Source: Methylohalomonas lacus
GTDB lineage: Bacteria; Pseudomonadota; Gammaproteobacteria; Methylohalomonadales; Methylohalomonadaceae
Length of the DNA: 64,000 bases
Assembly: GCF_024808875.1 (NCBI RefSeq)
Contig: NZ_JANUCT010000001.1
Location: 124,001-188,000, forward strand
Reading direction: 5' to 3'
The notes below the pieces were generated by a model, which was not told the origin of the DNA, did no database searches, and saw nothing but the letters and a program-made list of their open reading frames with translations. This document shows positions 11,767 to 29,972 of this stretch, piece after piece. The position numbers and the translations under genes were made by a program. Every line of letters starts with the position of its first letter. Within the stretch, counting starts at the first letter, position 1.

Positions 11767-11822
11767 AGCACCGGTCGACTGCTCGTCATCAGTCGACCGG
11801 TCCGGTCAGTCCGGGTAGCGAA

Positions 11823-12257: not shown

Positions 12258-12444
12258 GTTGACTTCTCCTTGAGGGGAATTGTCCGGCCAGCCAGTAGAA
12301 GCCGGGCCGGGGAAACCAATGATAGACCTGCCTGTTGGTTGTCACCAAGGTAGGCTGTTATTGCTCGCTGTGTCACGTGGATTCGTTGATCTGGTTTGAC
12401 CGGCTATAATTGCTTCTGTTCGCTTGCCACGGGAGTGATGGAAA

Positions 12445-13092: not shown

Positions 13093-13095
13093 TCC

Positions 13096-13878
13096 ATGCA
13101 GTCGATCGAGTCACTGCTCAGGCGTGATTTCTGGATCAGCCTGGGTACGCTGATTCTGATTATCGTTATGACCTGGGCCTGGCTCGTCACTGGCGCCGGT
13201 ATGGACATGACTGCGCTGGAGATGACACGCATGGATCCGGCGATGGCCATGCCTGCGGCAGTCTGGAATCGTGACTACGCTGTGCTCATATTTTTCATGT
13301 GGTGGATCATGATGATCGCCATGATGCTGCCGAGTGCTGCACCGGTCATCCTGTTGGGAGCTGCGTTGAACAGGCGCACCAGCCCCGAACACTCGCCCTA
13401 TGGTTCAAGCAGCTGTTTCCTGACAGGGTATCTGCTCGCCTGGGCCGTATTTAGTGCAGTCGCAGTTATGGGGCAGTGGCTGTTGCAGACAAACGGTTTG
13501 TTGACCGGTTTTTTACACCTAAACAGTCAGAGCATGGCCGGCGTGTTATTGATAGGCGCAGCGCTATGGCAGTTGACGCCCGTCAAGCAGGCCTGTCTGC
13601 GCCATTGCCGCAGTCCCGTGGATTTTCTCATACAGCGCCGCCGGCCCGGCACGACGGGGGCACTCCGCATGGGTGCTGAGCATGGGATCTATTGCCTGGG
13701 ATGTTGCTGGTTCTTGATGCTGCTTTTGTTCGTCGGTGGCGTAATGAACCTGTACTGGATTGCTGCGTTGGCACTCTATGTGCTGGCGGAAAAGCTGTTG
13801 TCGACCGGCCGATCCATAAGCTACGTCGCGGCCGGCCTGCTTGCCTGCACGGGCATATACCTGCTACTGAACGCCTGA
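13096..13878 (+). CDS. DUF2182 integral membrane protein
   Basis: Encodes 260 residues with about six to seven membrane segments. Conserved family features visible are the Met-rich segments (FFMWWIMMIAMMLPSAAP) and GAEHGIYCLGCCWFLMLLLF, consistent with the predicted metal-binding membrane family DUF2182. It starts three bases after the DUF1326 gene and is surely co-transcribed. Metal (perhaps copper or nickel) handling is an inference from Met, His and Cys residues in the membrane segments. Confidence 0.85.
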   Translation: MQSIESLLRRDFWISLGTLILIIVMTWAWLVTGAGMDMTALEMTRMDPAMAMPAAVWNRDYAVLIFFMWWIMMIAMMLPSAAPVILLGAALNRRTSPEHSPYGSSSCFLTGYLLAWAVFSAVAVMGQWLLQTNGLLTGFLHLNSQSMAGVLLIGAALWQLTPVKQACLRHCRSPVDFLIQRRRPGTTGALRMGAEHGIYCLGCCWFLMLLLFVGGVMNLYWIAALALYVLAEKLLSTGRSISYVAAGLLACTGIYLLLNA

Positions 13879-14062
13879 CGGCCGCCAGCCATTCCGAAGC
13901 CGGTACTGTCAGCATGGCGGCTCGAACATACTGTTCCATCTCACATATGCGCCGACTATACCGGACAGATTATCGATAATCCAGTCGGTCAGAAAAGCCG
14001 CCAATAAAACCGCTATGTTTCGTATATCTGGAATAACCGGCTATATCCTGCAGTAGCGGTCG

Positions 14063-14446
14063 CTAATTCAGATAGACGGCCTTGACCAGCTTCCAGTGCT
14101 GTTCCGCCCGATCAACAAGCACACGGCTGCATCCCAAAGGTTGGGGCGCATCTCCGGCGTTTAGCCTGACTACCGAACGCCCGCCTTGGCGTACATTCAT
14201 GAAATAGCGCTCGAGTTGTGCCTCTATGTCCTGGCTCGGATGATTGTTGTGCACGACGACAAGTTTACCGCCCCGGGCTTCGCAGTCGGCATCATATACG
14301 GCATTCAGTATCACATGGCTACTGGCCGTATCTTTCGCCATAGTAGGTGTGCCGAGGCAACAAAACAGAATCAGTGCTAACAATGATCTGTCCAGAATGC
14401 AGGTGTTGCCTGAAAGATCCGCTATTGTTTTGTCTCTCTGTTTCAT
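14063..14446 (-). CDS. Small exported protein of unknown function
   Basis: Encodes 127 residues. A hydrophobic segment (~18-36, RSLLALILFCCLGTPTMA) ending in an AxA-like site looks like a signal peptide, though the stretch before it is long. The mature part has two cysteines (DADCEARGG and LGCSRVL) that could form a disulfide. No family recognised. The frame is not overlapped by any better gene and codon use is normal, so it is kept with moderate confidence. It stands alone between the DUF2182 gene and the pre-mxa genes. Confidence 0.5.
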   Translation of the reverse strand: MKQRDKTIADLSGNTCILDRSLLALILFCCLGTPTMAKDTASSHVILNAVYDADCEARGGKLVVVHNNHPSQDIEAQLERYFMNVRQGGRSVVRLNAGDAPQPLGCSRVLVDRAEQHWKLVKAVYLN

Positions 14447-14658
14447 GTCTGCAGTTTCGTGGTGATTTTAAAAGCCATGCATTGAACCACATCGGTTGTT
14501 GCCACGAAATGGGTCGTGTGGATCAGGAATGAATAACACTGCTGTTGTGATCATGATGGACATTATAGGAATAAGTTGCCACATGATTGGGAATTTAGTC
14601 TCTGGTCAGTGGCGCGGGCATGACGTATAAAAAATGAGATGTTGGCAGATGATTCAGT

Positions 14659-15201
14659 ATGACCATGTCGCACAAGGCACAGCGTGCCATGAAGCCAATA
14701 TCATGTCCGGTCGCCGTTTTGGCCTTGCTGGTACTGTTCGCCTGCGATCAGCCGGAAAGCACGCATCAATCCGCGATCAATCCGGCAAATGATGCTCGGC
14801 AGGAAGATGCGTCAAAAACCATGTCAGTGCCTGACTGGCTTGAATGGCATCACGATATGGATGCAGCGGTCTGGCTGGTCAAGCATGAAGCGCAAATACA
14901 TATGGAACCGGCTGATCGTTCAGAGTACGCACGAATTCTGGACAGCCTCAGCAAGCGTTTCCGGGAAAACAGACGCATGATCGCCAACCGAACGGTCGAT
15001 ATGCAGGCGCAGCTCATTTCTGCCGGCATAAATGATCCGGTCTACAAAATCATGCAGGGCATCAATTCGATCCCCCTCAATGTTGAGTCAGCCAGTTATG
15101 GCGAGCAATGCATGCGCTATCGTCAGCAACGATTGCAGGGGCGCTCGCATGAGGCCGCAATTGCCAGGCTGGCTTCCTATATGCAATCCGATCAAGGGTG
15201 A
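14659..15201 (+). CDS. Lipoprotein of unknown function
   Basis: Encodes 180 residues. A lipoprotein signal runs to LFAC; the start could also be the ATG at 14689 (MKPISCPVAVLALLVLFAC), which gives a more ordinary signal length. The mature part is charged and probably helical, with no family recognised. It precedes a small BamE-like protein and the mxa cluster on the same strand, but nothing ties it to methanol oxidation directly. Confidence 0.6.
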   Translation: MTMSHKAQRAMKPISCPVAVLALLVLFACDQPESTHQSAINPANDARQEDASKTMSVPDWLEWHHDMDAAVWLVKHEAQIHMEPADRSEYARILDSLSKRFRENRRMIANRTVDMQAQLISAGINDPVYKIMQGINSIPLNVESASYGEQCMRYRQQRLQGRSHEAAIARLASYMQSDQG

Positions 15202-15284
15202 TGTGTTCACCACTGCTTTCAATTCACTACTCTGTTCATGGAATCCCGTAGGGCTTCTGCAGAGACAATCAGGGGATACTTTAA

Positions 15285-15602
15285 ATGCAATCTTTTAGCA
15301 GACATATCCTGCCGGGCGTTGGTTTGATCCTGGCGTTGCTCATGGCAAGCGCGGATGTTTTGGCAGAACCACTGGCGGAAAAAGATTTTGTGCGTCAGGT
15401 GATGGGACAGCCGCAGGAGGAAGTACGCGGCGTAATGGGTGAGCCTGACAGCATCAGAACGGAAGGTAAGTACGAGTACTGGATCTATCATGATGCAGTG
15501 CGCGACATGATATCGGACAGAATATTCCGGCAAACCCAGGTGCTGTTTGTCGACGGTCGTGTGGCTGATTCGATCCACAGTAATTCAGAACCGGAAGACT
15601 GA
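15285..15602 (+). CDS. Small exported SmpA/OmlA (BamE-like) domain protein
   Basis: Encodes 105 residues with a signal peptide (LILALLMASADVLA). The mature part fits the SmpA/OmlA repeat-like fold: QEEVRGVMGEPDSIRTEGKYEYWIYHD shows the G-x-P...W-x-Y spacing of that family (shown here as two joined stretches, residues ~48-72). It has no lipobox, so it is probably periplasmic rather than the BamE lipoprotein itself. Located just before mxaF with a 319-base gap. Confidence 0.6.
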   Translation: MQSFSRHILPGVGLILALLMASADVLAEPLAEKDFVRQVMGQPQEEVRGVMGEPDSIRTEGKYEYWIYHDAVRDMISDRIFRQTQVLFVDGRVADSIHSNSEPED

Positions 15603-15921
15603 CGGTGCCGATTCTGGCAACCGATGTTCTGGCTGGAGTATTTGGCAAATTTTTCCTGGCAGGGATGGGAAATATTGCTCTCTTTTCAGGACTGATTGCC
15701 AGAATCATGGTCATGCAAAGCCAGCTTATGTATGAAACATTGCTCTCGCATCAAACCGATTTATAAAACATTATCACCATGGCTTTGTATCCAGTGTTGT
15801 TTTGCTTGTTCGAGTCATTGTCTTCTTGTGGGGGCTCATGGTTGAGCAATGATTTGTTCGAAGACCGACGACGGGATAGCCCGCAAATAATATAAAGAGA
15901 ACTTTAGAGGAGGTTCTTCTG
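15603..15921 (+). promoter_or_regulatory. mxaF leader region
   Basis: This 319-base gap holds no convincing gene. A strong ribosome site AGAGGAGG (15906-15913) lies 8 bases before the mxaF ATG, and the small hairpin GCTCA-TGGT-TGAGC spans 15835-15848. The mxaF promoter must lie here, but no sigma-70 pair could be chosen with confidence. Confidence 0.5.
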
Positions 15922-17790
15922 ATGAAGATTAATAGCATGCGGTTTCTGAGCGCCATTGCGTTGGCGCTTATGGTGGCGTCGCCATATACCATGGCCAATC
16001 AGAAACTTGACAAAATGTCGAAAGAGGACAGCAACTGGGTCATGCCCGGCGGCACCTATGACTTCAACGTGTTTGGTGAGCAGACTGAAATCAACGTCAA
16101 CAATGTTGACCAGTTGCGGCCGGCATGGTCGTTTTCAACAGGTGTGCTGAGTGGTCATGAAGGTACGCCATTGGTAATCGATGGCATGATGTATATACAT
16201 GGCCCGTATCCCAATAATACGTTTGCTCTGGATCTGGATAATCCGTCGGAGATCGTCTGGCAGCACAAACCGAAGCAGGATCCGGCTGCACGGGCAGTTG
16301 CCTGTTGTGACGTCGTCAATCGCGGTCTGGCTTACTGGCCCGGTGACGGTGACACGCCGCCACTGGTCATCAAGACCCAGCTGGACGGTCACCTGGTTGC
16401 CCTGAATGCCAAGACCGGTAAGGAGTACTGGAAGGTCGAGGTGATGGATATTTCCGTCGGCCAGACGCTGACCCAGGCCCCTTATGTCGCGAAGGACCTG
16501 GCTATCGTCGGCTCCTCCGGCGCCGAACTGGGTGTGCGCGGCCTGGTCAGCGCATTCAACGTTAAAACCGGTGCGATGGAATGGCGCTGGTATGCAACCG
16601 GGCCGGACGAGGATATTGGTCTGGCTGACAACTTCAACAGCGAAAATCCGCACTACGGCCAGGAAGGTCTGGGTCAGAAGACCTGGGAGAAGGATGCCTG
16701 GAAGATCGGTGGTGGTACCAACTGGGGCTGGTATGCCTACGACCCGGACCTGGAGATGTTCTACTACGGTTCCGGTAACCCGGCGCCCTGGAACGAAACC
16801 ATGCGTCCCGGTGACAACAAGTGGACCATGACCATCTGGGGACGTGACGTGAATACCGGTCTGGCCAAGTTCGGCTACCAGAAAACACCCCATGACGAAT
16901 GGGACTATGCCGGTGTTAATGTCATGGTGCTGACCGAGCAGGAAATCGACGGCGAGATGCGTAAAGTGCTGACACATCCGGATCGCAACGGCATTGTCTA
17001 TACGCTGGACCGCGAAACCGGTGATCTGCTCCGTGCTGACAAGCTCGACGAGACCGCCAACTGGGTCAAGTATGTCGATATGGAAACGGGCCTGCCGGTA
17101 CGTGACCCGGAATATTCCACCCGTATGGGGCACCGCTCACGTGATGTCTGCCCATCAGCCATGGGCTTTCATAACCAGGGCGTGATGTCTTACGACCCCG
17201 AGCAGCAGAACTTCTTTATCGGTATCAATCATCTGTGCATGGACTGGGAGCCCTTCATGCTGCCTTACCGGGCCGGTCAGTTCTTCGTCGGTGCCAACGT
17301 CTGGTCCTATCCGGGTCCGAAAGGCAATCGTGAGGAAGGCATTGGTTCCGGCCAAGTGAAATCCTATAACGCCAAAACAGGTGAGTTCGAGTGGTCCGTT
17401 ATGGAGAAATTCTCCGTCTGGGGCGGCACGATGGCCACCGCCGGAAACCTGGTCTTCTACGGTACGCTTGATGGTTTCATCAAGGCCCGCGATTCACGCA
17501 ATGGCGAGCTGCTCTGGAAGTACAAGCTGCCATCCGGTTCCGTGGGTTATCCGCTCACCTATACCCATAACGGTACGCAGTACGTCGGTATCAACTACGG
17601 TGTTGGCGGCTGGCCGGCTGTGGGGCTGGTGTTTGACCTGGAAGATCCGTCCGCCGGTCTCGGTGCCGTGGGCGCATTCAAGGAACTGCAGAACCATACG
17701 CAGATGGGCGGCGGCTTCATTGCCTTCTCGCTGCGTGGCCAGGGTCCGTTTGATGATTTGAGTGTTGGCGAATACAAGCCAAACAATTAA
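15922..17790 (+). CDS. mxaF: Calcium-dependent methanol dehydrogenase large subunit
   Basis: Encodes 622 residues: signal peptide (~1-25), then an eight-bladed quinoprotein propeller with repeated W-motifs. Key residues are visible: the vicinal disulfide C128-C129 that covers PQQ, metal ligands E202 ([10 protein letters not shown]) and N286 (GSGNPAPW), and catalytic D328 in DEWDYAGVN. Position 330 is Ala; lanthanide XoxF enzymes have Asp there (DYD), so this is the calcium type. It oxidises methanol to formaldehyde in the periplasm, passing electrons to cytochrome cL (MxaG). First gene of the mxa cluster and followed by a terminator-like hairpin, consistent with much higher expression than the genes downstream. 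Confidence 0.97.
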
Positions 17791-17838
17791 TGATCAGACA
17801 GACGTAAATCTCTCTTCCTAACTTTTGATGAGTGAGTT

Positions 17839-17886
17839 TCGGGAACAGGCGCCATCTTTAATGGTGGCGTCTGTCTCCCGATTTTT
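17839..17886 (+). terminator. Terminator-like hairpin after mxaF
   Basis: Outer stem TCGGGA/TCCCGA and inner stem CAGgCGCCA/TGGCGtCTG close a small loop, followed by ATTTTT at 17881-17886. It ends 16 bases before the mxaJ start. Partial read-through would explain how mxaF can be expressed above mxaJ. Confidence 0.8.
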
Positions 17887-17901: not shown

Positions 17902-18759
17902 ATGAACAAGTTGTTGAGCCTGCTTATCGCAGTGCCGCTGAGTATGGCAACACCCGTAATAGCCCAGGCTGAAAGTGAAACGTTGCGTGTCTGTGCAGCT
18001 GAAGACGAGATGCCCTATTCGAATAGTTCCGGTGACGGTTTTGAAAACGAAGTCGCCAAGGTTATTGCCGATGAACTTGACTGGAAAGTCGACTTTGTCT
18101 GGCTGGACCGTGCCGCAATATTTCTGGTCAAGGATCTTCTGGAGCCTGGAAATTGTGATGTGGTCATGGGGCTGGATGCGGATGATCCGCGTGTGCTGAC
18201 CTCAGACCCCTATTACAAGTCCAGTTACGTGTTTGTGTACCGGAAGGATAGTGGTTTGACCATCAAGGATTGGGAAAGCCCCGACCTGAAAAAGGTGCAG
18301 AATTTTGCCATTACCGCCCATAGTCCCGCTGAAGCGGCATTGCGGGAGATAGGCAAGTATGAATCCAATCTCAACTACATGTACTCACTGATTGGTTACA
18401 AGTCCAGACGTAATGAATATGTTCGTTATGAGCCCGCAAAAATGATCTCCGAGGTTATCAACGGCAATGCCGGGGTAGCTATTATCTGGGGGCCCTCGGC
18501 TGGCCGCTACGTAAAGAACTCGAGCGTGCCGCTGGAAGTACAGCCGGTACCCGACTATCAGACAGGCGAGGGAGAAAACATCAGGTTTACTTATGAGCAG
18601 TCTCTGGCCGTTCGTAAAAATGATATCGACTTGATGAAGAAGCTAAACAGGGCCCTTGAGCAGGCCAGGCCACAAATACACAAAGTGCTGAAAGCCGAAG
18701 GTGTACCGCTGGTCAAGGATGGCGAGTTGCAGACAGCAAACAAACTTGAATCCAAATAG
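17902..18759 (+). CDS. mxaJ: Methanol oxidation periplasmic protein MxaJ
   Basis: Encodes 285 residues: signal peptide ending around AQA (residue ~22) and then a type 2 periplasmic solute-binding fold (LRVCAAEDEMPYSN near the start of the mature protein, ICD-like hinge motifs later). MxaJ is required for active methanol dehydrogenase and is thought to assist MxaF/MxaI assembly; it does not bind an imported solute as far as known. Preceded by GGAGG (17892-) and located between mxaF and mxaG as in all mxa clusters. Confidence 0.94.
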   Translation: MNKLLSLLIAVPLSMATPVIAQAESETLRVCAAEDEMPYSNSSGDGFENEVAKVIADELDWKVDFVWLDRAAIFLVKDLLEPGNCDVVMGLDADDPRVLTSDPYYKSSYVFVYRKDSGLTIKDWESPDLKKVQNFAITAHSPAEAALREIGKYESNLNYMYSLIGYKSRRNEYVRYEPAKMISEVINGNAGVAIIWGPSAGRYVKNSSVPLEVQPVPDYQTGEGENIRFTYEQSLAVRKNDIDLMKKLNRALEQARPQIHKVLKAEGVPLVKDGELQTANKLESK

Positions 18760-18781: not shown

Positions 18782-19324
18782 ATGAACAAAAAAATTATCC
18801 TGATTCCGTTATTGCTTGCCTTGCCCTTCTTGCTGATTTCAGCGCCTACACTTGGTGATGTTCTGTTCCGGAATGTTATTTCCGGCCAGGAATTTGACCT
18901 ATCCAAGGCCAAAGAAGGTGAGGAAACCGAGGCCGTCAAGCATTTCAAGGAGACCGGTGAAAATCTCTATAACGATGATGAGGAAGCTTGGCGTTCCGGT
19001 TACGACCTGTTTGCAACGGCATGTGCTGGCTGTCACGGTCATCACGCCGAAGGCAAGCTCGGTCCCGCGCTGGTTGATGATTACTGGACCTACCCTACCG
19101 GCAGAACGGATAAGGGCCTGTTTGAAATCATATATGGCGGTGCACGTGCCATGATGGGCCCCCAGCGGGGCAATCTTTCCATCGACGAGATGCTTAAGAT
19201 TATGGGCTGGTTGCGTGCCGCCTATCAGGGTGACCCCAGTGAGGCCAAATGGATGACACCGGAAGAGCAGAAGAATTTTGAGCCGATCCCGGTGGATCAT
19301 TTCGATGACAAGGAATCTGGTTGA
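18782..19324 (+). CDS. mxaG: Cytochrome cL, electron acceptor of methanol dehydrogenase
   Basis: Encodes 180 residues from MNKKIILIPLLLALPFLLIS; this ATG follows a GAAGAGACG ribosome site and begins a proper signal peptide, while an upstream in-frame start inside mxaJ does not. Single class I heme site CAGCHGH (C81, C84, H85); a methionine in GARAMMGPQ is the likely sixth ligand. It takes electrons from PQQH2 in MxaF and passes them to a cytochrome cH. Order mxaF-J-G is the canonical one. Confidence 0.95.
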   Translation: MNKKIILIPLLLALPFLLISAPTLGDVLFRNVISGQEFDLSKAKEGEETEAVKHFKETGENLYNDDEEAWRSGYDLFATACAGCHGHHAEGKLGPALVDDYWTYPTGRTDKGLFEIIYGGARAMMGPQRGNLSIDEMLKIMGWLRAAYQGDPSEAKWMTPEEQKNFEPIPVDHFDDKESG

Positions 19325-19484: not shown

Positions 19485-19784
19485 ATGGTCAACAAGATGA
19501 AAATTATTGCTGCATGTGGCGTCATGGGACTGTCGATTGCGTCATTCAGCGCGGCTGTGACGGCCTATGATGGTACTAATTGTGATGCGCCGGGTGATTG
19601 CTGGCAGCCCAAGCCGGGTTTCCCGGAAAAGATTGAGGGCACAAAGTACGATCCCAAGCACAGCAAGGAAGAACTCGGCAAGCAGCAGAAAGCTATCCAG
19701 GCAATGGAGCGCCGTAATGCCAAGCGTGCCGAGCACTTCAAGAAAACCGGCGAATGGGTTTATGACATTTCAAAACTTGAATGA
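19485..19784 (+). CDS. mxaI: Methanol dehydrogenase small subunit
   Basis: Encodes 99 residues. After a signal peptide (~1-27) the mature protein starts YDGTNCDAPGDCWQPKPGFP and ends in a long charged helix (KAIQAMERRNAKRAEHFKKT), the MxaI pattern; the two cysteines form a disulfide in known structures. MxaI wraps around MxaF in an alpha2beta2 enzyme and its presence separates MxaF-type from XoxF-type enzymes, which lack it. Strong ribosome site AGGAGG (19470-). Confidence 0.97.
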   Translation: MVNKMKIIAACGVMGLSIASFSAAVTAYDGTNCDAPGDCWQPKPGFPEKIEGTKYDPKHSKEELGKQQKAIQAMERRNAKRAEHFKKTGEWVYDISKLE

Positions 19785-19837: not shown

Positions 19838-20920
19838 ATGATTTACAGAACGGATTATGTAATCCGTTGGAGAAGTGAAGTGAACGAATCCGTGGCTTCT
19901 GACGCCCTGCAATCCCGCCTTGGCGACTGGCGCGAACAGGCACTATCGTTGGAGAGTGCCGTCAATGCAGCGGTGATTGGTCAGGAGCATGCCGTACGCA
20001 TGGCAACCGTGGCCATTTTTGCGCGCGGCCATGTTCTTCTGGAGGGCGATGTCGGTGTTGGCAAGACAACCCTGCTGCGGTGTGTCGCCCGTGCTGTCGG
20101 TGGCGCCTATGAGCGTATAGAAGGCACGGTCGATCTGATGCCAACCGATCTTGTCTACCATACATACATTAGTTCAGACGGCAAGCCCTGTGTTGATCCG
20201 GGCCCATTGCTGCGCCATAGCGAGGAGCTGGTCACGTTTTTCTTCAATGAAGTCAACCGCGCACGACCACAGGTACATTCGCTGTTGCTTCGGGCAATGG
20301 CAGAGCGCAGCGTTAATGGTTTCAATAGGGAATACCATTTCCCCCATTTGCAGGTGTTCGCCGATCGCAACCGTGTCGAGAAGGAGGAAACATTCGAATT
20401 GCCGGCCGCTGCCCGGGATCGTTTCCTGATGGAAATCAACATCGAATCCCCCGCCGACGAGGACCTTCAAAAGGCACTCATGTTTGACGTTCGTTTCCAT
20501 GATGCTGATGCACTCGTTAACTCCGTACCCGAAGCCGTTGTCCCGTATCAGCAACTGAACTCTATTGCCGAGCATATCCAGCAGAGCATCCATGTCGCTC
20601 CGGCCCTGCAGGATTATGCGCTTGGCCTGGTTCGTGCCCTACGTCGGCCGCAGGATTATGGTATTGAGCTGGAGGATGTCGATACATCTAATCTGGTCAT
20701 CGGCGGCGGTAGTCCACGCGGCATGAGTGCACTCATGCGGGCAGCACGGGTACATGCCTGGCTAAGCGGCCGGGATATGGTTGTGCCCGAGGATCTGCAG
20801 GTTCTTTTTCAGGAGCTTATGGCACATCGCGTATTCTTTAATCCGATATACGAGTATCGACGTGAAACCCTGGCTGTTCAGCTGATTGATGCTGTAGTCA
20901 AGACTGTCGCCGCACCCTGA
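19838..20920 (+). CDS. mxaR: MoxR-family AAA+ ATPase MxaR
   Basis: Encodes 360 residues from ATG 19838; a GTG at 19880 with GGAGAAG just upstream (19869-19875) is an alternative start giving 346 residues. Walker A is GDVGVGKT (residues 70-77) and Walker B is FFFNEVNRARPQ, as in MoxR ATPases. In the family these act as chaperones with VWA proteins; in mxa clusters MxaRSACKLD are needed for metal insertion and maturation of MxaF. Followed closely by mxaS (DUF58), the usual MoxR partner. Confidence 0.93.
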   Translation: MIYRTDYVIRWRSEVNESVASDALQSRLGDWREQALSLESAVNAAVIGQEHAVRMATVAIFARGHVLLEGDVGVGKTTLLRCVARAVGGAYERIEGTVDLMPTDLVYHTYISSDGKPCVDPGPLLRHSEELVTFFFNEVNRARPQVHSLLLRAMAERSVNGFNREYHFPHLQVFADRNRVEKEETFELPAAARDRFLMEINIESPADEDLQKALMFDVRFHDADALVNSVPEAVVPYQQLNSIAEHIQQSIHVAPALQDYALGLVRALRRPQDYGIELEDVDTSNLVIGGGSPRGMSALMRAARVHAWLSGRDMVVPEDLQVLFQELMAHRVFFNPIYEYRRETLAVQLIDAVVKTVAAP

Positions 20921-20941
20921 TAAACGGGACGGGAGTTTAGA

Positions 20942-21859
20942 GTGGCGTCGAATAATCCGGCATGGCCCCGGTATTCCAGTAACCGGCATTTCGACAATAA
21001 TTATGCCAGCGTCGAACCGGAAGAATTTCATTATCGCATCAGACAGCCGGCGTCTGGTTTGCGCCCCGGGTTCCATCGCAGTATACAGATTGGGTCCGGC
21101 GATCAGTTTCGTGAATATGGTAGTTTGCTGCGCCAACCGGACCCCAGACGTCTGGATTTGCGCGCCAGTCTGCGCGATCCGCTACAGCAGTTGCAGGTCA
21201 GGATTTATAATCAGCGCAGCACGCTCACAGTCTGTCTCCTTGCCGATCTGACTGCTTCCATGAGTTTTGGCGGCACTGGCGGTAAATTACGATTGCTGAC
21301 TGAAATTGCTGCCTCTATAGCCCTGTCTGCCTTTCGAACCGGCGATGCATTCGCCTTTTACGCCGCCGATACGATACTGCGTCAGGAGCTTCTGATACCT
21401 CCCACCCGGCGCTCGGGCTTGCCCTGGCAGATTGCCGGACAGCTGTATCATGCAGCGCCAGCTGGCAACCATGCGCGCGGCATGCTGGCAGCCGTGCAAC
21501 GCGTGCCGGCGCGGACCTCATTGATTTTCCTCGTCAGTGATTTTCACTGGCCGAATGATTTGCTTCATGAAGTCCTGGGACGCCTGTCCGGACACATTGT
21601 AGTGCCGTTGGTTTCATGGAGCGCGCACGAGTATGTCCCGGCTGCCACATTTGGCCTGGTTGCAATACGGGACCTTGAAAGTGGCCAGCGTCGTCTGCTG
21701 CTGGCCCGTCCCGGCCTCAGAGCTCGTCTGACAAAAGCACAGCATGGTCGTCGCAGCCAGCTGCACAGAACTTTTGTAAGCCATGGTCATGAGCCGGTTT
21801 TTTTCGAGGGGCATTATGATCCCCGGCAACTAACCGAATACTTTCTGGCCCGGGGATAG
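20942..21859 (+). CDS. mxaS: DUF58 protein MxaS
   Basis: Encodes 305 residues starting at GTG 20942, 21 bases after mxaR. It has the DUF58 pattern: SGDQFREYGSLLRQPDPRRLD followed by a VWA-like half (TVCLLADLTASMSFGG) in which D-x-T-x-S replaces the classical D-x-S-x-S. DUF58 proteins pair with MoxR ATPases; MxaS belongs to the maturation module for methanol dehydrogenase. No membrane segment is evident. Confidence 0.88.
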   Translation: MASNNPAWPRYSSNRHFDNNYASVEPEEFHYRIRQPASGLRPGFHRSIQIGSGDQFREYGSLLRQPDPRRLDLRASLRDPLQQLQVRIYNQRSTLTVCLLADLTASMSFGGTGGKLRLLTEIAASIALSAFRTGDAFAFYAADTILRQELLIPPTRRSGLPWQIAGQLYHAAPAGNHARGMLAAVQRVPARTSLIFLVSDFHWPNDLLHEVLGRLSGHIVVPLVSWSAHEYVPAATFGLVAIRDLESGQRRLLLARPGLRARLTKAQHGRRSQLHRTFVSHGHEPVFFEGHYDPRQLTEYFLARG

Positions 21860-21861
21860 CC

Positions 21862-22773
21862 ATGCAGCTGATTCATACAAGGTGGTATTACAGTCTGTTA
21901 TGGCTGCTGCTCTTCCTGCCAGGTGCGGTTGTTATGGCCGCCGAGCCATCCATACAGCGTTTCGCCCCCAAACCATTCGGCTATCAGATGGGCGATGTCA
22001 TCAGGCACCGAATTGTGGTGCGCACCGATGAGAATTTCGCTCTGGTCAGGGAGGCGCTGCCGAGGACCGGGGCACTGGATTACTGGCTGGAATTGCAGTC
22101 CGTCAGTGTCGAGGAGTCTGCCGGAGGTCAGAAGTATGTCATTTTACTGGACTACCAGGTTTTCTATGCGCCGCTTGATGTAAGGGCATTGGAACTGCCA
22201 GAGCTGGAGATCAAGCTGGCCAGTGAGACGCAAACCAGGAGCCTGAAACTGCCGGCCTGGGAATTCACGATATCACCGATACTGGAAACCATGGGTGCAC
22301 GTTTCAGCGAGTCCGGCGTCTACATGCGCGAGGATGCCGCACCGCTATTACGCACTGCGAGCAGCCACAGACAGCGTCTGTTCATATGGTTGGCGACCGG
22401 TCTCGTACTGGCTGCCACGGCAACAGGCCGTTCAATCTGGTTGCGTGGTTCACGCCAGCCGTTTCGACGCGCCCTTGTACAGTTGCGTCGTCTGGCTCGG
22501 CATGGCGATACCGATTCCATGTATGAGGGCGTTCGCTGCGTGCACCGCGCATTCAATGAAGTCGCCGGCGAGTCCGTGTTTGCAGACACGCTGGACCGTC
22601 TGTTTCAGAAACAGCCTGGCCTGGAGGGGCTGCGGCAACGTATTGAAAATTTCTATCAGCAGTCGCGCAAGCTATTTTTTGCCGATCCTGCACTAGCAGA
22701 TAATGCGTCGGACAGGATGGGTTTCGCTGAGCTTAAGCATCTGTGCCGTGACTGTGCCCGGGCCCTGAAATGA
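21862..22773 (+). CDS. mxaA: Methanol dehydrogenase maturation protein MxaA
   Basis: Encodes 303 residues: an N-terminal signal/anchor (YSLLWLLLFLPGAVVMA), a periplasmic domain (~30-165), one membrane segment (~172-190, LFIWLATGLVLAATATG) and a cytoplasmic tail. This architecture and its position between mxaS and mxaC support MxaA; overall sequence is less conserved than other Mxa proteins. MxaA is needed for calcium insertion into MxaF in methylotrophs. Starts two bases after the mxaS stop and its end overlaps mxaC. Confidence 0.85.
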   Translation: MQLIHTRWYYSLLWLLLFLPGAVVMAAEPSIQRFAPKPFGYQMGDVIRHRIVVRTDENFALVREALPRTGALDYWLELQSVSVEESAGGQKYVILLDYQVFYAPLDVRALELPELEIKLASETQTRSLKLPAWEFTISPILETMGARFSESGVYMREDAAPLLRTASSHRQRLFIWLATGLVLAATATGRSIWLRGSRQPFRRALVQLRRLARHGDTDSMYEGVRCVHRAFNEVAGESVFADTLDRLFQKQPGLEGLRQRIENFYQQSRKLFFADPALADNASDRMGFAELKHLCRDCARALK

Positions 22774-23765
22774 CACTGAATCTGGGCGTTAGTTATCCAT
22801 GGGTATTGCTGTTGTTGCCCCTTGTCGCGTTGCCATGGCTGCAGATGCCCCTGGACAGCCGTGACCATTCCTGTGTTGCTGCATTGCCGGCCGATAGCCT
22901 GTCGCGAGCTCTGCAGATTGGCCTGGCGGTGGCAGGTTCGGCCGCGATTCTGGCAACGTTGCTCGGCATCGCGGATCTGCATCGCGTGGAACACAGCATA
23001 CCGCGTGTGGGCACCGGGGCCCATCTGGTTCTCTTGCTGGATCGCAGCAAAAGTATGGACAACACGTTTGCCGGGCGGCGCGCGGATGGTGACGAGGAAT
23101 CGAAAGCGGAAGCCGCCCGGCGTTTGTTAAGTGAATTCATGCAGAAACGCGAGCATGACCTGTTTGGCGTGGCCGCATTCAGTACCACCCCTTTATATGT
23201 GTTGCCGCTGACGGATCGGCGCCAGGCCACACAGGCGGCGATAGATACCCTGGCGACACCGGGCCTGGCCTATACCAATGTCGGTGATGGTCTGAGTCTG
23301 GCCCTGTCCTATTATCGCGATCTCCCGATGACAGGTTCCCGTGCCATTGTCCTGGTATCCGACGGTGCCGCCACGATTGACTTTCGTACCCAGGAGAAAC
23401 TGCGACAGTATTTCCCTGAACTGGGTGTACGCCTTTATTGGGTGTTCCTGCGCACCAGCGGTGATCGCGGACCATTCGATGAGCCCGAGAATGAGCAGGA
23501 AGACACTCCGGAGGCTATGCCCGAACGCCACCTGCACAAGTTTTTTCAGACCCTGGGCGTTCCCTACAGTGCCTACGAAGCGGAAAATCCGCAGGCACTG
23601 GAACAAGCCATCCTGCAGATTGCGAGACTGGAAAACGAGCCACTTGTGATCCAGGAAAAGGTGCCGCGGGTAAACCTTGCCCATCTGTGTTATGCGCTGG
23701 CCCTGGGGGCGCTGTTGCTGTTGTTGTCGGCAAAACTCATGGAGGTGCGTGCATGGCAGGCGTAA
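22770..23765 (+). CDS. mxaC: VWA-domain membrane protein MxaC
   Basis: Encodes 331 residues. Two N-terminal membrane segments (~8-25, ~48-68), a von Willebrand A domain with MIDAS residues D91-x-S93-x-S95 (LLDRSKSMD), and a C-terminal membrane segment (~305-323) just before the end. It matches BatA/MxaC-type proteins that work with MoxR and DUF58 partners. Its ATG overlaps the mxaA stop by four bases. Confidence 0.9.
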   Translation: MTLNLGVSYPWVLLLLPLVALPWLQMPLDSRDHSCVAALPADSLSRALQIGLAVAGSAAILATLLGIADLHRVEHSIPRVGTGAHLVLLLDRSKSMDNTFAGRRADGDEESKAEAARRLLSEFMQKREHDLFGVAAFSTTPLYVLPLTDRRQATQAAIDTLATPGLAYTNVGDGLSLALSYYRDLPMTGSRAIVLVSDGAATIDFRTQEKLRQYFPELGVRLYWVFLRTSGDRGPFDEPENEQEDTPEAMPERHLHKFFQTLGVPYSAYEAENPQALEQAILQIARLENEPLVIQEKVPRVNLAHLCYALALGALLLLLSAKLMEVRAWQA

Positions 23766-24325
23766 CCCTGAAATCAGCCAGTCTCTGGCTCGGAGCCTGC
23801 AGTATGCTGCTGCTCGTTGCCGTTATTGTGGATGCAGTACCGGTCCTTAACGCCTACCGCATTAACAGCAACGTCGAACGCATCATGCAGTCATCGATAC
23901 GTGAGCCGGCACCGGAGGATCTGTCGCATGAAGAACGCCTGGCCTATGCCTGGCGTTTGAATGAACTGGGCGAGGAAGAACTGGCCGTGGCGGAATATCG
24001 ATTACTCGCCGGTTCGACGGGTGTTGCAGAGAAGATACGCATTGCTGCCCACTACAATCTGGGCAACATCTACCTGCGCGATGCATTGGCAGAAGCGGAA
24101 GATATCAACGTTGATCAGGCCCGCACCCGGGGGCAGCTTGCCAAGGCGCAACTGCGGGATGCGTTGCGGCTGGATCCGGAATACTGGGATGCGCGCTACA
24201 ACCTGGAACTGGCCCATCATATTGTGCCGGACCTGCCATTGGGTGAAGGTGGTGAAGATCCCGAGGCTGTCGAGCGCGAGGATGTCTATTCGGACATGTC
24301 CGGGTCACCTTACGGGATGCCGTAA
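23753..24325 (+). CDS. mxaK: Methanol oxidation protein MxaK
   Basis: Encodes 190 residues from MAGVTLKSASLWLG (ATG 23753), overlapping the end of mxaC by 13 bases; a longer frame upstream would duplicate mxaC DNA and lacks sense. One N-terminal membrane segment (~10-30), then a helical TPR-like domain in the periplasm (AHYNLGNIYLRDALAEAE; WDARYNLELAHHI). Position between mxaC and mxaL assigns MxaK. Confidence 0.87.
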   Translation: MAGVTLKSASLWLGACSMLLLVAVIVDAVPVLNAYRINSNVERIMQSSIREPAPEDLSHEERLAYAWRLNELGEEELAVAEYRLLAGSTGVAEKIRIAAHYNLGNIYLRDALAEAEDINVDQARTRGQLAKAQLRDALRLDPEYWDARYNLELAHHIVPDLPLGEGGEDPEAVEREDVYSDMSGSPYGMP

Positions 24326-25341
24326 TGAACAGGTTGCGTGGCTGGCGTCTGGTTTGTCTGTTGCTGGCAGTCGTGCTGCTGGCTGTTGCCATAACCGATC
24401 CGCATTATGAACTGGAGCAGCCGGTTTACAGCTTCATGGCGGTTGTCGATATCACGCGCAGCATGAACACGCGCGATTACCGGCTTGGTGATCTTGATAT
24501 AAGCCGACTGGAAACAGTGCGCCGTACGTTGAAGGAAATGTCACGAACATTGCCCTGCGGCTCACGTCTTGGCGTTTCCCTGTTCACTGAGCGACGTGCA
24601 GCCGTACTGTTAATGCCGGTAGAAGTCTGTGACAACTATGCACCGTTAGCGGAAACGATTGACCATATAGACTGGCGCATGGCGTGGGCCGCCGACAGCA
24701 ACATCATGCAGGGGCTGTATAACACACTGGAACTGATGCGCGATCTGTCCGTCCGCGAGATGTTGAATGCAGACCTGTTGTTCATTACGGACGGTCATGA
24801 GGCGCCACCGCCAAACCCGAATTACATGCCCGATCTGAAAGACTTTCAGAACCAGGGCGAATGGCAGCCTGGCGGCCTCGTTATCGGCGTGGGCGGCGAT
24901 GAGTTGAGCCGAATTCCCAAGCATAACCAGGAAGGCGAAATGATTGGTTATTACGGTGCGGATGATGTTACCCAGGTGACCAGTTTCGGATTGCCCGAGG
25001 ATCCCGAATCAATTGAAGGCTATCATCCGCGTAATGCGCCCTGGGGAAATCGTGACACCAGTGGTAACGAGCATCTATCCAGTCTGAAGGAAAGTTATCT
25101 GCTTGAACTGGCTGGGCAAAGTGGTCTGGATTATATACGTCTGGAAACACCTGCCCAGCTCGCAACCGACATACAGGAGCAAGTCACGGCCAGGCGTGTC
25201 GAACGGCCGGTTCGTATCCATTTTATTCCGGCAATGCTGGCACTTGCCGCCGTACTTGCACTCTACGTGGCTGTCTGGTTCCGCCATATTGCGGCGTTGT
25301 TGATTTCATACACCATAATCAAGAGGTATTTGCATGAATAA
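24325..25341 (+). CDS. mxaL: VWA-domain membrane protein MxaL
   Basis: Encodes 338 residues. N-terminal membrane segment (~7-24), VWA domain with MIDAS D42-x-T44-x-S46 (VVDITRSMNTRDY), and a C-terminal membrane segment (~295-315, AMLALAAVLALYVAVWF). Start overlaps the mxaK stop by one base (TAATG). With MxaC it is the second VWA protein of the maturation module; MxaL is linked to calcium insertion in genetic work on methylotrophs. Confidence 0.9.
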   Translation: MNRLRGWRLVCLLLAVVLLAVAITDPHYELEQPVYSFMAVVDITRSMNTRDYRLGDLDISRLETVRRTLKEMSRTLPCGSRLGVSLFTERRAAVLLMPVEVCDNYAPLAETIDHIDWRMAWAADSNIMQGLYNTLELMRDLSVREMLNADLLFITDGHEAPPPNPNYMPDLKDFQNQGEWQPGGLVIGVGGDELSRIPKHNQEGEMIGYYGADDVTQVTSFGLPEDPESIEGYHPRNAPWGNRDTSGNEHLSSLKESYLLELAGQSGLDYIRLETPAQLATDIQEQVTARRVERPVRIHFIPAMLALAAVLALYVAVWFRHIAALLISYTIIKRYLHE

Positions 25342-25867
25342 AAAACTGTTGGCCACTCTGGTATTGTTCCTGCCGCTGGTTGCTCATGGCCACGGCCCGA
25401 CACCGCAGAAAATCGAGGAAACCATTGTGATAGATGCATCGCCGGATGCTGTCTGGGCAGTCGTAGGCAAGTTTGGCGAGATTGAAGGTTGGCATCCTAC
25501 GGTCAAAAAATCGGTTCCCAGTGGCGAACATGAGCAGGCGGGCGCCAGCGAACGCGACTTGACACTGGAAAATGATGAGGTGGTTGGCGAAAGCCTCGAT
25601 CAGTATGAGCCTGAACAGCATCATCTGGCCTACCGGCTGCTGAGAGAAAATCTGGAAGCGCTGCCGGTCAGTTTCTATTCAGCCGATATGCAGCTGACCG
25701 CTACGGACGGCGGCACTAAAGTCAGCTGGTCGGCCCGTTTTTATCGTGGGGATACCGGTAACTTTCCGCCCGAGGATCTGAACGACCAGGCGGCAATCGA
25801 TGCATTAACCGAGTTTTTTCAAAGTGGACTCCAGGGATTGAAAAAACGGGTTGAGTCCGATACATGA
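25334..25867 (+). CDS. mxaD: SRPBCC-family periplasmic protein MxaD
   Basis: Encodes 177 residues: signal peptide (~1-19, ending VAHG), then a START/SRPBCC fold (IEETIVIDASPDAVWAVVGK; VSWSARFYRGD). MxaD is known to promote contact between methanol dehydrogenase and cytochrome cL. Its ATG overlaps the end of mxaL by 8 bases, and its stop overlaps the next gene (ATGA). Confidence 0.92.
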   Translation: MNKKLLATLVLFLPLVAHGHGPTPQKIEETIVIDASPDAVWAVVGKFGEIEGWHPTVKKSVPSGEHEQAGASERDLTLENDEVVGESLDQYEPEQHHLAYRLLRENLEALPVSFYSADMQLTATDGGTKVSWSARFYRGDTGNFPPEDLNDQAAIDALTEFFQSGLQGLKKRVESDT

Positions 25868-26841
25868 GGCACAGTTATCGGCAAGCAATCATGTTCATCA
25901 GCCTGTTGTTGGCCAGTATGCTGGTGAATGCAGACGAGTTGTATGTGATCAATCAGGCGGCCGCTACAGTCATAGTTATTGATGAACGTACCGGCGAAAG
26001 ACAGGAGACCATCGCGGTCCCGCCAGGTCCCGTAGGTCTGGCGTTTTCAGGCGATGGCAGCAGGGCTTATGTCACCCATCCGGAGCAGGGTCAGGTCAGC
26101 GTCATCGATACCGCCCAGCGGCAAGTGCTGCGCAGCATTGATGTTGGTGGCATGCCGTTCGGCATCGCCGTGGATGAAGGTACGCACCGGCGGTTGCTGC
26201 TAGTGACCGACTGGCAACGCAATGCCCTGGTGTTTGTCGATCCGCAGCGTGGTGCGGTTATCGATCTGCTGGCGACCGGTGATGCACCGACTGGCATCGC
26301 CGTGGACGAGCGGAACCGCCGTCTGTATGTGGCCAACCGTGACAGCGGCACGATTACGGTATTGTCTGCGGATACACCGGAACTGTTTGCCACAATCGAG
26401 GCCGGCAGGGCGCCCTACGCCCTGCAACTGTCGGCCAGTGGGGGCAGGCTGTACGTGGCTGACCCGGGCGGCAATGAAGTGCTGACGATTGATACGTCCA
26501 GTCACGCGGTCAGCGGCCATGGCGAAGTGGGCCACGCTCCTTACGCACTGGCGTTGACGCCGGATGAGCAACGCCTGCTGGTGACCAGCCAGGGCGATGA
26601 CATGCTGTCGATACTGGCGCCGGATCGCGACCTGGAAAAGCTCGCCGGGATTGAAGTGGGTCGTGACCCGGAAGGTGTTGCCGTAGCCAGTAATGGGCAG
26701 CGAGCCTGGGTGGCCAACTGGTTCGACGAGACGCTGTCCTTGATCGATCTTGAGACCTACGAGGAACTGCGCCGTATTGCCTGTGATCCCGGTTGCCGGA
26801 CAATTGTACCCGTGCCGCACCAGGATGAAGCAGGGTCATGA
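25864..26841 (+). CDS. YVTN-family beta-propeller protein, PQQ-system associated
   Basis: Encodes 325 residues with an N-terminal signal (~8-23) and at least six repeated blades of the YVTN/lactonase type (for example RLYVANRDSGTITVLS and RAWVANWFDETLSLID). Proteins of this kind are common near PQQ dehydrogenases, where they are annotated as PQQ-catabolism-associated propellers of unknown role. It overlaps the mxaD stop by four bases, so it is part of the mxa transcript here. Not a quinoprotein itself: no tryptophan docking motifs. Confidence 0.8.
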   Translation: MRHSYRQAIMFISLLLASMLVNADELYVINQAAATVIVIDERTGERQETIAVPPGPVGLAFSGDGSRAYVTHPEQGQVSVIDTAQRQVLRSIDVGGMPFGIAVDEGTHRRLLLVTDWQRNALVFVDPQRGAVIDLLATGDAPTGIAVDERNRRLYVANRDSGTITVLSADTPELFATIEAGRAPYALQLSASGGRLYVADPGGNEVLTIDTSSHAVSGHGEVGHAPYALALTPDEQRLLVTSQGDDMLSILAPDRDLEKLAGIEVGRDPEGVAVASNGQRAWVANWFDETLSLIDLETYEELRRIACDPGCRTIVPVPHQDEAGS

Positions 26842-26878
26842 GCATTGCGGTTACAGAACCAGTTCTTCCGAATTGGTG

Positions 26879-27700
26879 ATGGACGTCCGCCATTTTCTGT
26901 TACTTGTAGGTCTATTGGCCTGTATGTCCGTATTGGCCGAGACTGATGATGGCCGGCGCGCGGCCTCGGAAAGAGTCTGGAGCGACAGCCTGAAACCGGA
27001 TAATTTTTCAGGCCGTGCCGTCATTCTAGATAGGGCGCACGATATCATACGGATTCAGGCACCGGAGTGGGTGGAGGATCCGACGGCAGTGCCGGTGTCT
27101 GTACATGCAGTTCGGGCACAGAGCGATGAATTTTCAATTCGTAGGATGTGGCTGTTTATCGATCGCAACCCATTGCCGCTGGTAGGCCGATTCGAACTGA
27201 CGCCGCAAAGCGGGCGGGCGGATCTGGCGCTGAAAGTCCGGGTTGATGATGCCAGCTTCGTTCGGGTTGTGGTCGAGACGAATGATGGTGAACTGTACAT
27301 GGATAAAACCTTCATGCGCAGTGCCGGTGGCGGCTGCTCGGCGGCGCCCGGTCCCGGTGCGCAGGAATCCATGGACAGGCGCGGGGAGATGAAGCTGAAA
27401 TTCCTGGCGGATCCGACACTGGGCGCACCTGTGCCCGTCCAGTTGATGGTCCGGCATCCGAATATTACCGGCCTGAGTATTGATGTAGAGACACGCAACC
27501 GGCCCCCGGCCTATTTTCTGAATGAGCTGCTCATCAGCTACGCCGGCAGAACGGTACTGAAAGCCCAACTGACCTTTGCGCTGAGCCGGGACCCGGTGCT
27601 GCGTTTCCATTTCCGGCCACAGGGGGTAGGCGCCCTGACGGTTCAGGCCAGTGATACCAGGCAGGGACAGTACGCGAATCATTTTCCGGTTCCTCTTTAA
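26879..27700 (+). CDS. Quinoprotein dehydrogenase-associated SoxYZ-like carrier
   Basis: Encodes 273 residues from MDVRHFLLLVGLLACMSVLA (a TTGGTGAT context at 26874 and the signal peptide fix the start). A SoxY-like half (~30-155) ends with the swinging-arm sequence SAGGGCSAAP (C153), and a SoxZ-like half (~165-270) follows. In Sox systems the SoxY cysteine carries sulfur intermediates; the fused form is known beside PQQ dehydrogenases and cytochrome clusters, where its role is unknown. The conserved GGC inside the chain rather than at its end is characteristic of this fusion. Confidence 0.88.
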   Translation: MDVRHFLLLVGLLACMSVLAETDDGRRAASERVWSDSLKPDNFSGRAVILDRAHDIIRIQAPEWVEDPTAVPVSVHAVRAQSDEFSIRRMWLFIDRNPLPLVGRFELTPQSGRADLALKVRVDDASFVRVVVETNDGELYMDKTFMRSAGGGCSAAPGPGAQESMDRRGEMKLKFLADPTLGAPVPVQLMVRHPNITGLSIDVETRNRPPAYFLNELLISYAGRTVLKAQLTFALSRDPVLRFHFRPQGVGALTVQASDTRQGQYANHFPVPL

Positions 27701-27936: not shown

Positions 27937-29310
27937 ATGACGGTAAATTATCCTTATCGCCAGCGATTGTCGCTACGCCTGCGTTCATTATTGCTGATAG
28001 TTGCAGTCATGCTGCTGATGCTAGTGGCAGGTAGCGTTGTCCTGCTTTACGTGGCGCGCGGGGCCGTGGAAGAAGAAATGGAGGCCGGCGTCGGGCTCGC
28101 CAGCCTGCTGGTGGATGGCACACTGCATGCCGCCGATCCCCGCGGGTTCCTGCCGGTGCGGGACGTTCTGCAGGGTCTGCAGTCCCTGCGGCACGTGGAT
28201 GTCATGCTCGACAGCCAGCCGGTCAAGCTGACGCATATCGAGCCACCCCAGGACGCACCGCAATGGTTTTATAACCTGTTGCGTCCTGAGGACTCGGTGC
28301 CGACCTATCGCCTGCCCATAGAAGTCGGCAGAAATACGGACTACGTCACTATACGTCCCAATCCCGGCGATGAAATCGATGAGATATGGAAGGACTTCAA
28401 GCTGCTCGTCGGTATTGCTGCCGTTGCCACGTTTCTGACGTGCTTTCTGATTTATCTGGCCATCTGGCGTGGACTGAAACCACTGCAAGCTTTACAGGAT
28501 GCTTTTGTGCGTCTGGAGCGTGGATATTTTGAGACCCGTATTGCGAGTTCCGCGCCGCGCGAATTGGCGAAGTTGCAGGATGGATTTAATCACATGGCCG
28601 AGGTGTTGCAGTCCAATATTGCCGAACGCCGGCGTCTGGCCGGACGAGTGGTTGAAATGCAGGAGAATGACTGGCGCGGGCTTGCCCGGGAAATACATGA
28701 TGAACTGTCACCGCAGATTTTCCGTCTGCGGGCAGATGCAGCCGCCTTGTCCGATATGCTCGCTACAGCAAGTCAGCCGGCGGCGCAGAACATGGTGCGT
28801 TCTATTGCAGAAAGCGTGGAAGTATTGCAGACACAAATGCAGAGCCTGTACAAGCGGCTGCGTCCCCAGGCCCTGGACGAACTCGGACTGAAAGGTGCCC
28901 TGGAGGACATGGTCAATCGCTGGCGCCGGTTGTATCCGAACGTCGAGTGGCTGCTGTATATGGATAAGTTGCCGGAACCCCTGCCGGACATGGTGAACGT
29001 TACCGTCTACCGTTTCGTGCAGGAAGGCTTGACCAATGCAGGCAGGCACTCAGGTGCCAGCAGGATTGAAACAAGTCTGCAGCACGTGGCCGAGCGGGAA
29101 ATGCTCCTGGTCACAATAAGCGATAATGGCAAGGGACTGGCCGAGGCAACGGGCGGTTACGGGTTTGGACTATCCGGTATGCGTGAGCGACTGTCAGCAC
29201 TGGGTGGCGTTCTGGAATACGATCATATTACGGGCGGTGGTCTCCTGCTGCGGGCGGAAATCCCGTTGCTTACGGACCAGGCGCCAGTGCAAACGGAAGG
29301 TGTGTTATGA
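27937..29310 (+). CDS. NarX/UhpB-type sensor histidine kinase at the mxa end
   Basis: Encodes 457 residues: membrane segment ~17-40, periplasmic sensor ~41-155, membrane segment ~157-178, HAMP (~178-232), HisKA_3 dimerisation domain with H254 (REIHDELSPQ) and a HATPase domain (VQEGLTNAGRHSGA; GYGFGLSGMRERL). The periplasmic part is not recognised. It overlaps the next response-regulator gene by four bases. A two-component pair beside mxa genes is found in several methylotrophs and may control methanol dehydrogenase expression, but the ligand is unknown. Begins 236 bases after the SoxYZ gene, so it may have its own promoter. Confidence 0.9.
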   Translation: MTVNYPYRQRLSLRLRSLLLIVAVMLLMLVAGSVVLLYVARGAVEEEMEAGVGLASLLVDGTLHAADPRGFLPVRDVLQGLQSLRHVDVMLDSQPVKLTHIEPPQDAPQWFYNLLRPEDSVPTYRLPIEVGRNTDYVTIRPNPGDEIDEIWKDFKLLVGIAAVATFLTCFLIYLAIWRGLKPLQALQDAFVRLERGYFETRIASSAPRELAKLQDGFNHMAEVLQSNIAERRRLAGRVVEMQENDWRGLAREIHDELSPQIFRLRADAAALSDMLATASQPAAQNMVRSIAESVEVLQTQMQSLYKRLRPQALDELGLKGALEDMVNRWRRLYPNVEWLLYMDKLPEPLPDMVNVTVYRFVQEGLTNAGRHSGASRIETSLQHVAEREMLLVTISDNGKGLAEATGGYGFGLSGMRERLSALGGVLEYDHITGGGLLLRAEIPLLTDQAPVQTEGVL

Positions 29311-29972
29311 GCCAGTCAGAAGAACTGAATGTGTTGATTGTCGACGATCACCCCGTTGTAAGAGAAGGTTGCCGAAGCCTGTTCAAGTCGGCCGGCGACC
29401 TGCGGCTTATTGAAGCCGAATCGCCGTCCGCCACGTTGACCTTGTATGAACAGGAACAGCCGGATGTGGTGCTGCTTGATATCAACCTGCCTGAAACGGG
29501 CGGACTGGAACTGCTGGCGATGCTGCTCAAGGAATATCCGGGTGCTAAAATATTAATGTTCTCGATGTACGATAATGCGGCGCTCGCAGCCCGTGCCATT
29601 GAGCTCGGTGCGTCCGGCTATATAACCAAAAATAGCGCTGTACCGCATCTGATCAGTGCGATCAGGCAGGTGGCCAGAGGCAAACCGTTTCTCGATCCGA
29701 ACCTTGTTCAGGACGTGCTTTTCATCAATCTGGATATTCCCGGTTCGCAGGGCGACAAGCGGGATACCATGATCATGGATCTGCTTGGGCAGGGCAAAAC
29801 ATTGCGCGAGATCGTATCGATTACCGGCATCAGCTACAGGACGGTTTGCCGTATATGTACACGCCTGAAGTCGCGTCTGAACGTTACCTCGATTAATGCA
29901 CTCAGCCGACTGGCAGTATTGCGCAATATCGTCAGTAGCCACCCCGACGGTAGACAGAAAGCGCAATCATAG
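29307..29972 (+). CDS. NarL/LuxR-family response regulator (MxaB-like position)
   Basis: Encodes 221 residues: receiver domain with acidic pocket D13-D14 and phospho-acceptor D58 (VVLLDINLPETGG), then a C-terminal LuxR-type helix-turn-helix (LGQGKTLREIVSITGISYRTV). Pairs with the overlapping sensor kinase. MxaB is a response regulator for the mxa promoter in Methylorubrum; this one sits in a comparable place, but orthology is not established. Confidence 0.9.
   Translation: MSQSEELNVLIVDDHPVVREGCRSLFKSAGDLRLIEAESPSATLTLYEQEQPDVVLLDINLPETGGLELLAMLLKEYPGAKILMFSMYDNAALAARAIELGASGYITKNSAVPHLISAIRQVARGKPFLDPNLVQDVLFINLDIPGSQGDKRDTMIMDLLGQGKTLREIVSITGISYRTVCRICTRLKSRLNVTSINALSRLAVLRNIVSSHPDGRQKAQS

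Follow-up and report, generated by a model that had tools for sequence, protein, structure and literature searches.

The window, as we call the whole 64,000-nt stretch of Methylohalomonas lacus DNA that was analysed (NZ_JANUCT010000001.1, positions 124,001-188,000, forward strand), contains a full mxa gene cluster in a source genome of 2.76 Mb that is 98.97% complete (Table 1). The operon is mxa-type and calcium-type, as an earlier note on this DNA had proposed: mxaJ, mxaG and mxaI score above their family cut-offs, and the window MxaF reads DEWDYAGVN where both XoxF proteins of the source genome (one encoded next to xoxJ) read DEWDYDGVN, a residue difference that we take to be the mark of a calcium-type operon. 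Paired cysteines are present in the window MxaF and in both XoxF proteins. At the downstream end of the cluster, the mxaD-like and propeller reading frames overlap, as the earlier note had read, the shared bases being the four letters ATGA; the SoxYZ-like frame does follow the propeller, with a gap of 37 bases rather than the 38 given there, its ATG lying at 26879 and the propeller ending at 26841. Between 25200 and 28100 of the window no sigma-70 promoters were found, and terminator-like sites were no commoner than shuffle level. For the 105-aa reading frame upstream of mxaF, genome G119 alone among 16 mxa operons has a match at the corresponding site, and this match is weak (L046 4982-5302).

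Table 1. Genes of the mxa cluster and its downstream flank, in window coordinates
Feature	Position	Strand	Basis or remark
MxaH-like protein, 180 aa	14659..15201	+	named by position only; no Pfam match
105-aa ORF	15285..15602		between the MxaH-like gene and mxaF
mxaF, calcium-type methanol dehydrogenase large subunit	15922..17790	+	TIGR03075, 638.9 bits
mxaJ	17902..18759	+	TIGR03870, 321.6 bits (cut-off 258.1)
mxaG, cytochrome cL	18785..19324	+	TIGR03872, 206.9 bits (cut-off 147.8)
mxaI, small subunit	19485..19784	+	PF02315, 138.8 bits (cut-off 27)
mxaR, S, A, C, K, L	19838..25341	+	gene order common to G119 and other mxa operons
mxaD-like SRPBCC protein	25334..25867	+	PF10604, 96.8 bits
YVTN beta-propeller, most likely MxaE, 325 aa	25864..26841	+	N terminus signal-like
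fused SoxYZ-like carrier, 273 aa	26879..27700	+	TIGR04557; SoxY 52-153, C153, SoxZ 180-266
sensor histidine kinase	27937..29310	+	MoxY-like N-terminal match weak, below cut-off
response regulator, MxaB/MoxX-like	29307..29972	+	by position

What is the propeller that follows mxaD? A search for mxaI (PF02315) gave 6 matches among 369 genomes from the class and 11, one of them shared, among 398 from the phylum; we read the DNA surrounding mxaI in the resulting 16 genomes, among which the source genome is the sole representative of its order and the G028 region reaches only to the contig end (10.7 kb), with mxaF outside it. In 10 of the 16 (G000, G119, G121, G439, G496, G499, G545, G553, G568 and G671), mxaL/mxaD is followed by a propeller of the window protein's family; a weak match in G796, on the opposite strand and beside another substrate-binding protein, was left uncounted. 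The propellers of this slot align with common DW and NWF motifs, and identity to the G119 propeller is 40% for the window protein and about 30-34% for members from other genomes. The window propeller itself matches the repeat family TIGR02276 at 150 bits. Our positional reference for MxaE is a pair of Methylobacterium plasmids (L168, L169), as in Methylorubrum and Methylobacterium MxaE likewise comes straight after mxaD; in the M. bullatum stretch L169 the order is mxaD, propeller, MxaH-like protein and response regulator, with the same 4-base overlap, and it matches the mxaD-E-H-B locus-tag order of Methylorubrum extorquens AM1 (PMC6414531; papers are cited throughout from excerpts). The name thus rests on position within the genus, as read in these plasmids. 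A MxaH-like homologue was matched in 10 of the 16 mxaI-bearing genomes; in Methylobacterium-type operons its place is after mxaE and before mxaB, and in Starkeya novella, with the order mxaBxHFJG...LDE, mxaH is upstream of mxaF, as it is in the window (PMC3797975). In M. extorquens AM1, mxaE drops with the remaining mxa genes upon addition of lanthanum (PMC6414531), and in Methylocella silvestris the MxaE protein likewise drops (PMC9291206). The excerpts returned by our literature search hold no description of MxaE function, nor of MxaE as a propeller.

Two other readings of the propeller were considered and rejected. The PQQ-dependent catabolism-associated family TIGR03866 (PedA2) is also a YVTN propeller found near PQQ dehydrogenases, but the window protein reaches 125.1 bits against a cut-off of 287.3; a true member, at 447.3 bits, is present in G119 at L048, where a PQQ-dehydrogenase cluster (9402-17872) also holds a TIGR03863 binding protein and a very divergent extra SoxYZ. 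The window protein ends in CDPGC (26782-26796), whose two cysteines the other aligned propellers of the slot lack; as a thiol partner for SoxYZ this pair was dismissed, being absent in G119. A single-sequence model of the propeller is poor (pLDDT 62). Taken by sequence and position, the window propeller is most likely MxaE, and MxaE is most likely a periplasmic propeller that serves the calcium-type methanol dehydrogenase system as an accessory. In other words, where the earlier note saw both genes as attached to the mxa operon, the gene for the propeller is a usual member of such operons, most likely an old one already named in print.

The second gene encodes a fused SoxYZ-like carrier. At 209.7 bits (cut-off 140) it belongs to TIGR04557, as does the G119 copy (210.4 bits), and its model shows two SoxY/SoxZ-like domains (mean pLDDT 92.4, pTM 0.88), each half matching the Paracoccus SoxY and SoxZ chains with TM-scores by target of 0.82-0.89. 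The linker that holds C153 (residues 151-160) has a mean pLDDT of 56. Its arm, GGGCSAAPG, carries C153, and the only other cysteine, C15, lies in the signal-peptide-like N terminus. The earlier note had suggested that C153 on the SoxY arm could carry a bound group; what stands of this is the conserved carrier cysteine, its column being invariant in 36 of 36 aligned sequences and the G(G/A)C arm being present in 80 of 80 named SoxYZ relatives and in all 41 entries from the class and the region sets (some genes entered twice). The observation is not a matter of chance, because the propeller recurs at the same mxa site and the arm cysteine is kept in all 80 relatives.

Canonical SoxYZ has the same two-domain fold and a cysteine arm; the window protein differs in being a single chain with the arm internal. 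The arm of canonical SoxY is a free C terminus, with GGCGG as the motif given by the family name. An identification as the canonical thiosulfate carrier was rejected, the protein falling below the TIGR04488 and TIGR04490 cut-offs (62.3 versus 125 bits and 47.7 versus 76 bits) and the genome lacking SoxB. Closer kin are the TIGR04557 proteins PP_2677 of Pseudomonas putida and the SoxYZ-S4 fusions of lucinid symbionts, which are likewise fused, carry the arm cysteine and sit beside a PQQ dehydrogenase (PMC12997753, PMC11237559); the window arm reads GGGCSAA in place of GGCSAP or GACSAP, and the window gene lies within a calcium-type mxa operon after mxaE, not beside xoxF, pedH or SoxH. The family of the mxa-linked gene is known; its placement is new. 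Fused SoxYZ proteins also form a second branch, well apart from the first, with the arm GGGCT (L049, L061-L065), and in L049 the gene adjoins SoxH1 (TIGR04558), near a PQQ dehydrogenase.

How common is this placement? Of the 16 mxaI-bearing genomes, two, the source genome and G119, have fused SoxYZ within the mxa cluster, each time directly after mxaE, and G119 is the only mxaI genome among 53 of its order. No mxa genes flank SoxYZ in any of 80 named loci (0/80; flanks of at most 10 kb and often shorter). The neighbour genes of these loci are named by family from one scanned member per cluster. The comparison of MxaF and XoxF neighbourhoods for which the earlier note had called separates the two genes: the propeller is at home in mxa operons, and the carrier is a rare guest there that has an xoxF-cluster PQQ dehydrogenase nearby in 25 of the 80 loci (L100 at 28% identity only). 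Since 14 of the 16 mxaI genomes have no linked SoxYZ, and G028 has no TIGR04557 match whatsoever, SoxYZ is not needed for MxaF generally. Our literature search found no report of SoxYZ within an mxa operon in the excerpts it returned, subscription papers being mostly outside its coverage.

In the tree, the window SoxYZ pairs with a paralogue from contig 26 of its own genome (98/86), and the G119 copy stands elsewhere on a long branch. Independent recruitment into two mxa operons, which this separation might suggest, was considered and not adopted, as a common clade of both copies is not rejected (p-AU 0.0985, in a smaller, quick tree of 83 of the 109 rows). The MxaE proteins of the two operons cluster together (100/99). 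A tree of six mxa proteins places G000 with G121 (86/87), and G000 with G119 is not rejected (p-AU 0.272); G121, with its mxa genes in the same clade, has MxaE, and its fused SoxYZ is on a different contig. Could the carrier then be a mere passenger, a duplicated SoxYZ gene that landed behind mxaE and is simply co-transcribed? The rarity of the linkage and the long branches of both mxa-linked copies (1.59 and 3.43) would suit such an accident, but both copies retain all columns, that of C153 among them, in which 21 family members do not vary, and the same slot is occupied in two taxonomic orders; we consider it hardly probable at all.

Beyond the mxa operon, the fused family follows PQQ alcohol dehydrogenases closely. 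Counting as fused only copies above the TIGR04557 cut-off and without an inner stop, with matches below the cut-off excluded, we found 57 copies in 39 of 369 gammaproteobacterial genomes, from 26 families. A TIGR03075 enzyme (E <=1e-120) is present in 37 of these 39 genomes; the remaining two are G199, which is 64% complete, and G311, which is 78% complete. PQQ alcohol dehydrogenases occur in 5 of 150 genomes with other TIGR04557 matches only, mostly split SoxY-SoxZ, and in 19 of 180 genomes with no TIGR04557 match (Fisher p 2e-31 for fused versus other SoxYZ, a guide only because the genomes are related). At least 28 of the 57 copies lie within 10 kb of a TIGR03075 enzyme, a lower bound because three candidates per genome were scored. 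The fused SoxYZ family is thus nearly confined to bacteria that have a PQQ alcohol dehydrogenase. The earlier remark that both families recur around these enzymes is supported.

One proposal is that SoxYZ, perhaps together with MxaE, matures the dehydrogenase, either by forming or keeping the disulfide of its paired cysteines or by loading PQQ. The carrier sits among accessory genes near mxaD, the cysteine pairs are there in MxaF and both XoxF proteins, and maturation has been put forward in print for PP_2666/2677/2678 in a review of the ped system that lists forming disulfides, stabilising the cofactor and protecting PQQ as roles (PMC12997753). On the other hand, fused SoxYZ is missing from 24 of the 61 genomes that have a PQQ dehydrogenase, most mxaI-bearing genomes have no linked copy, and maturation leaves unexplained the linkage to SoxC described below; we judge it unlikely.

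Some neighbours of SoxYZ at its other sites are sulfur genes. SoxC (TIGR04555) and prmB lie near SoxYZ in 9 of the 80 loci, and the SoxC-linked and xoxF-linked copies share a 44-row clade (100/99) with the window copy and its paralogue. The paralogue itself and SoxC (536 bits) are some 2.5 kb apart, in a locus (L056 5018-10241) that also encodes a SoxD-like c-type cytochrome and a thioredoxin-like protein, these two named by motifs and context, with none over a family cut-off. A DASS-type transporter is encoded there as well. Elsewhere, a conserved protein of 125-130 aa with spaced cysteines is convergent with SoxYZ in 30 of the 80 loci (for example, L066 1106-1483); it has no NCBIfam match, and Pfam likewise gave nothing for its relative L122 10249-10641. 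The xoxF-xoxJ clusters (L066-L104) include a pseudoazurin-like cupredoxin in 17 of the 80 loci and a conserved, periplasmic-looking protein of 266 aa, with no NCBIfam match, in 18 (cited examples L093 4711-5511 and L101 6892-7362). That the clade of the window copy is also tied to SoxC and SoxD-like genes favours sulfur chemistry. The earlier note had offered methanol dehydrogenase maturation, PQQ handling and sulfur-based protection side by side; the sequence decides none of them, and this linkage favours the last.

SoxH2 (TIGR04559) is upstream of SoxYZ in 31 of the 80 loci, immediately so in 29, all labelled Methylococcales; in the source genome it is on contig 2 (383 bits), adjoining neither SoxYZ nor a PQQ dehydrogenase. 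This neighbour lends itself to a different reading, an aldehyde relay in which C153 would trap the aldehyde coming from the dehydrogenase as a hemithioacetal, oxidation would turn this into a thioester, and a SoxH-like hydrolase would free the acid. Fused SoxYZ follows alcohol dehydrogenases, SoxH2 is a hydrolase of metallo-beta-lactamase fold, SoxH1 weakly resembles hydroxyacylglutathione hydrolase (36.7 bits, far below the cut-off), and the NCBI family name speaks of a relay system. However, the same carrier clade adjoins SoxC and the SoxD-like cytochrome, which are sulfur enzymes, and our literature search found no such relay; we hold it to be distinctly unlikely.

If the cargo is sulfur, is it fuel? 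The source genome has SoxC and SoxH2 and no match to SoxB, and SoxYZ, SoxCD and SoxH could form an energy-yielding side path, with the PQQ dehydrogenase acting on sulfur compounds or sharing electrons with them. We know of no sulfur substrate of MxaF, and a fuel path leaves the siting among mxa genes unexplained; this reading appears to us very unlikely, its precedent being thiosulfate oxidation by the Advenella XoxF, a report cited in PMC6548844. The Sox set of Methylophaga thiooxydans, soxCDHYZ plus two soxYZ fusions without SoxAB, is much like that of the source genome (PMC6548844).

The reading that we prefer, and hold tentatively at somewhat less than even confidence, is that the two genes encode MxaE and an added SoxYZ, a periplasmic thiol carrier that would remove reactive sulfur from the compartment of methanol dehydrogenase. 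The window SoxYZ is a TIGR04557 copy placed among the mxa genes, and its sister in the tree is the SoxC-linked copy of its own genome. C153 on its flexible arm may bind reduced sulfur of the periplasm (sulfide, persulfide, sulfite or thiosulfate), a SoxCD-like sulfane dehydrogenase would oxidise the carrier-bound sulfur, and a SoxH-like zinc hydrolase would release it in place of the missing SoxB, so that sulfur nucleophiles would be kept off the PQQ and the cysteine pair in the dehydrogenase. Here, we infer the cargo, the direction of transfer and order of partners, and the benefit to MxaF. The arm being an internal linker and not a free C terminus, its entry into SoxCD is not assured.

Precedent for such a guard comes from Hyphomicrobium, in which thiosulfate inhibits the use of methanol but not of formate (PMC11237559, PMC12997753), and an xoxF-linked SoxYZ fusion has been proposed to shield methanol dehydrogenase from thiosulfate (PMC11237559). 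SoxYZ fusions have also been argued to be improbable as direct players in sulfur metabolism (PMC11237559); we favour the sulfur-carrying guard because the linkage to SoxC within the same clade weakens the case for a fusion outside sulfur chemistry. The Pseudomonas homologues, which in RB-TnSeq gave minimal phenotypes, in lanthanide-poor medium, count against the guard (PMC12997753). A literature search on a sulfite-PQQ adduct found no papers. A broader proposal, which we regard as doubtful, is that a SoxB-less Sox branch of fused SoxYZ, SoxCD and SoxH serves solely to shield PQQ methanol dehydrogenases from sulfur, its carrier having spread over xoxF, SoxC and mxa sites and its mxa copy being specialised for MxaF and working with MxaE.

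The idea of protection by xoxF-linked copies is already in print; what is new here is the link to SoxC and the copy in an mxa operon. The co-occurrence with PQQ dehydrogenases and the siting of one clade at both xoxF and SoxC tie methanol oxidation to sulfur chemistry in a concrete way, and methanol dehydrogenases carry a large share of methylotroph carbon flow. Because the carrier occurs almost only alongside PQQ alcohol dehydrogenases, its job is testable.
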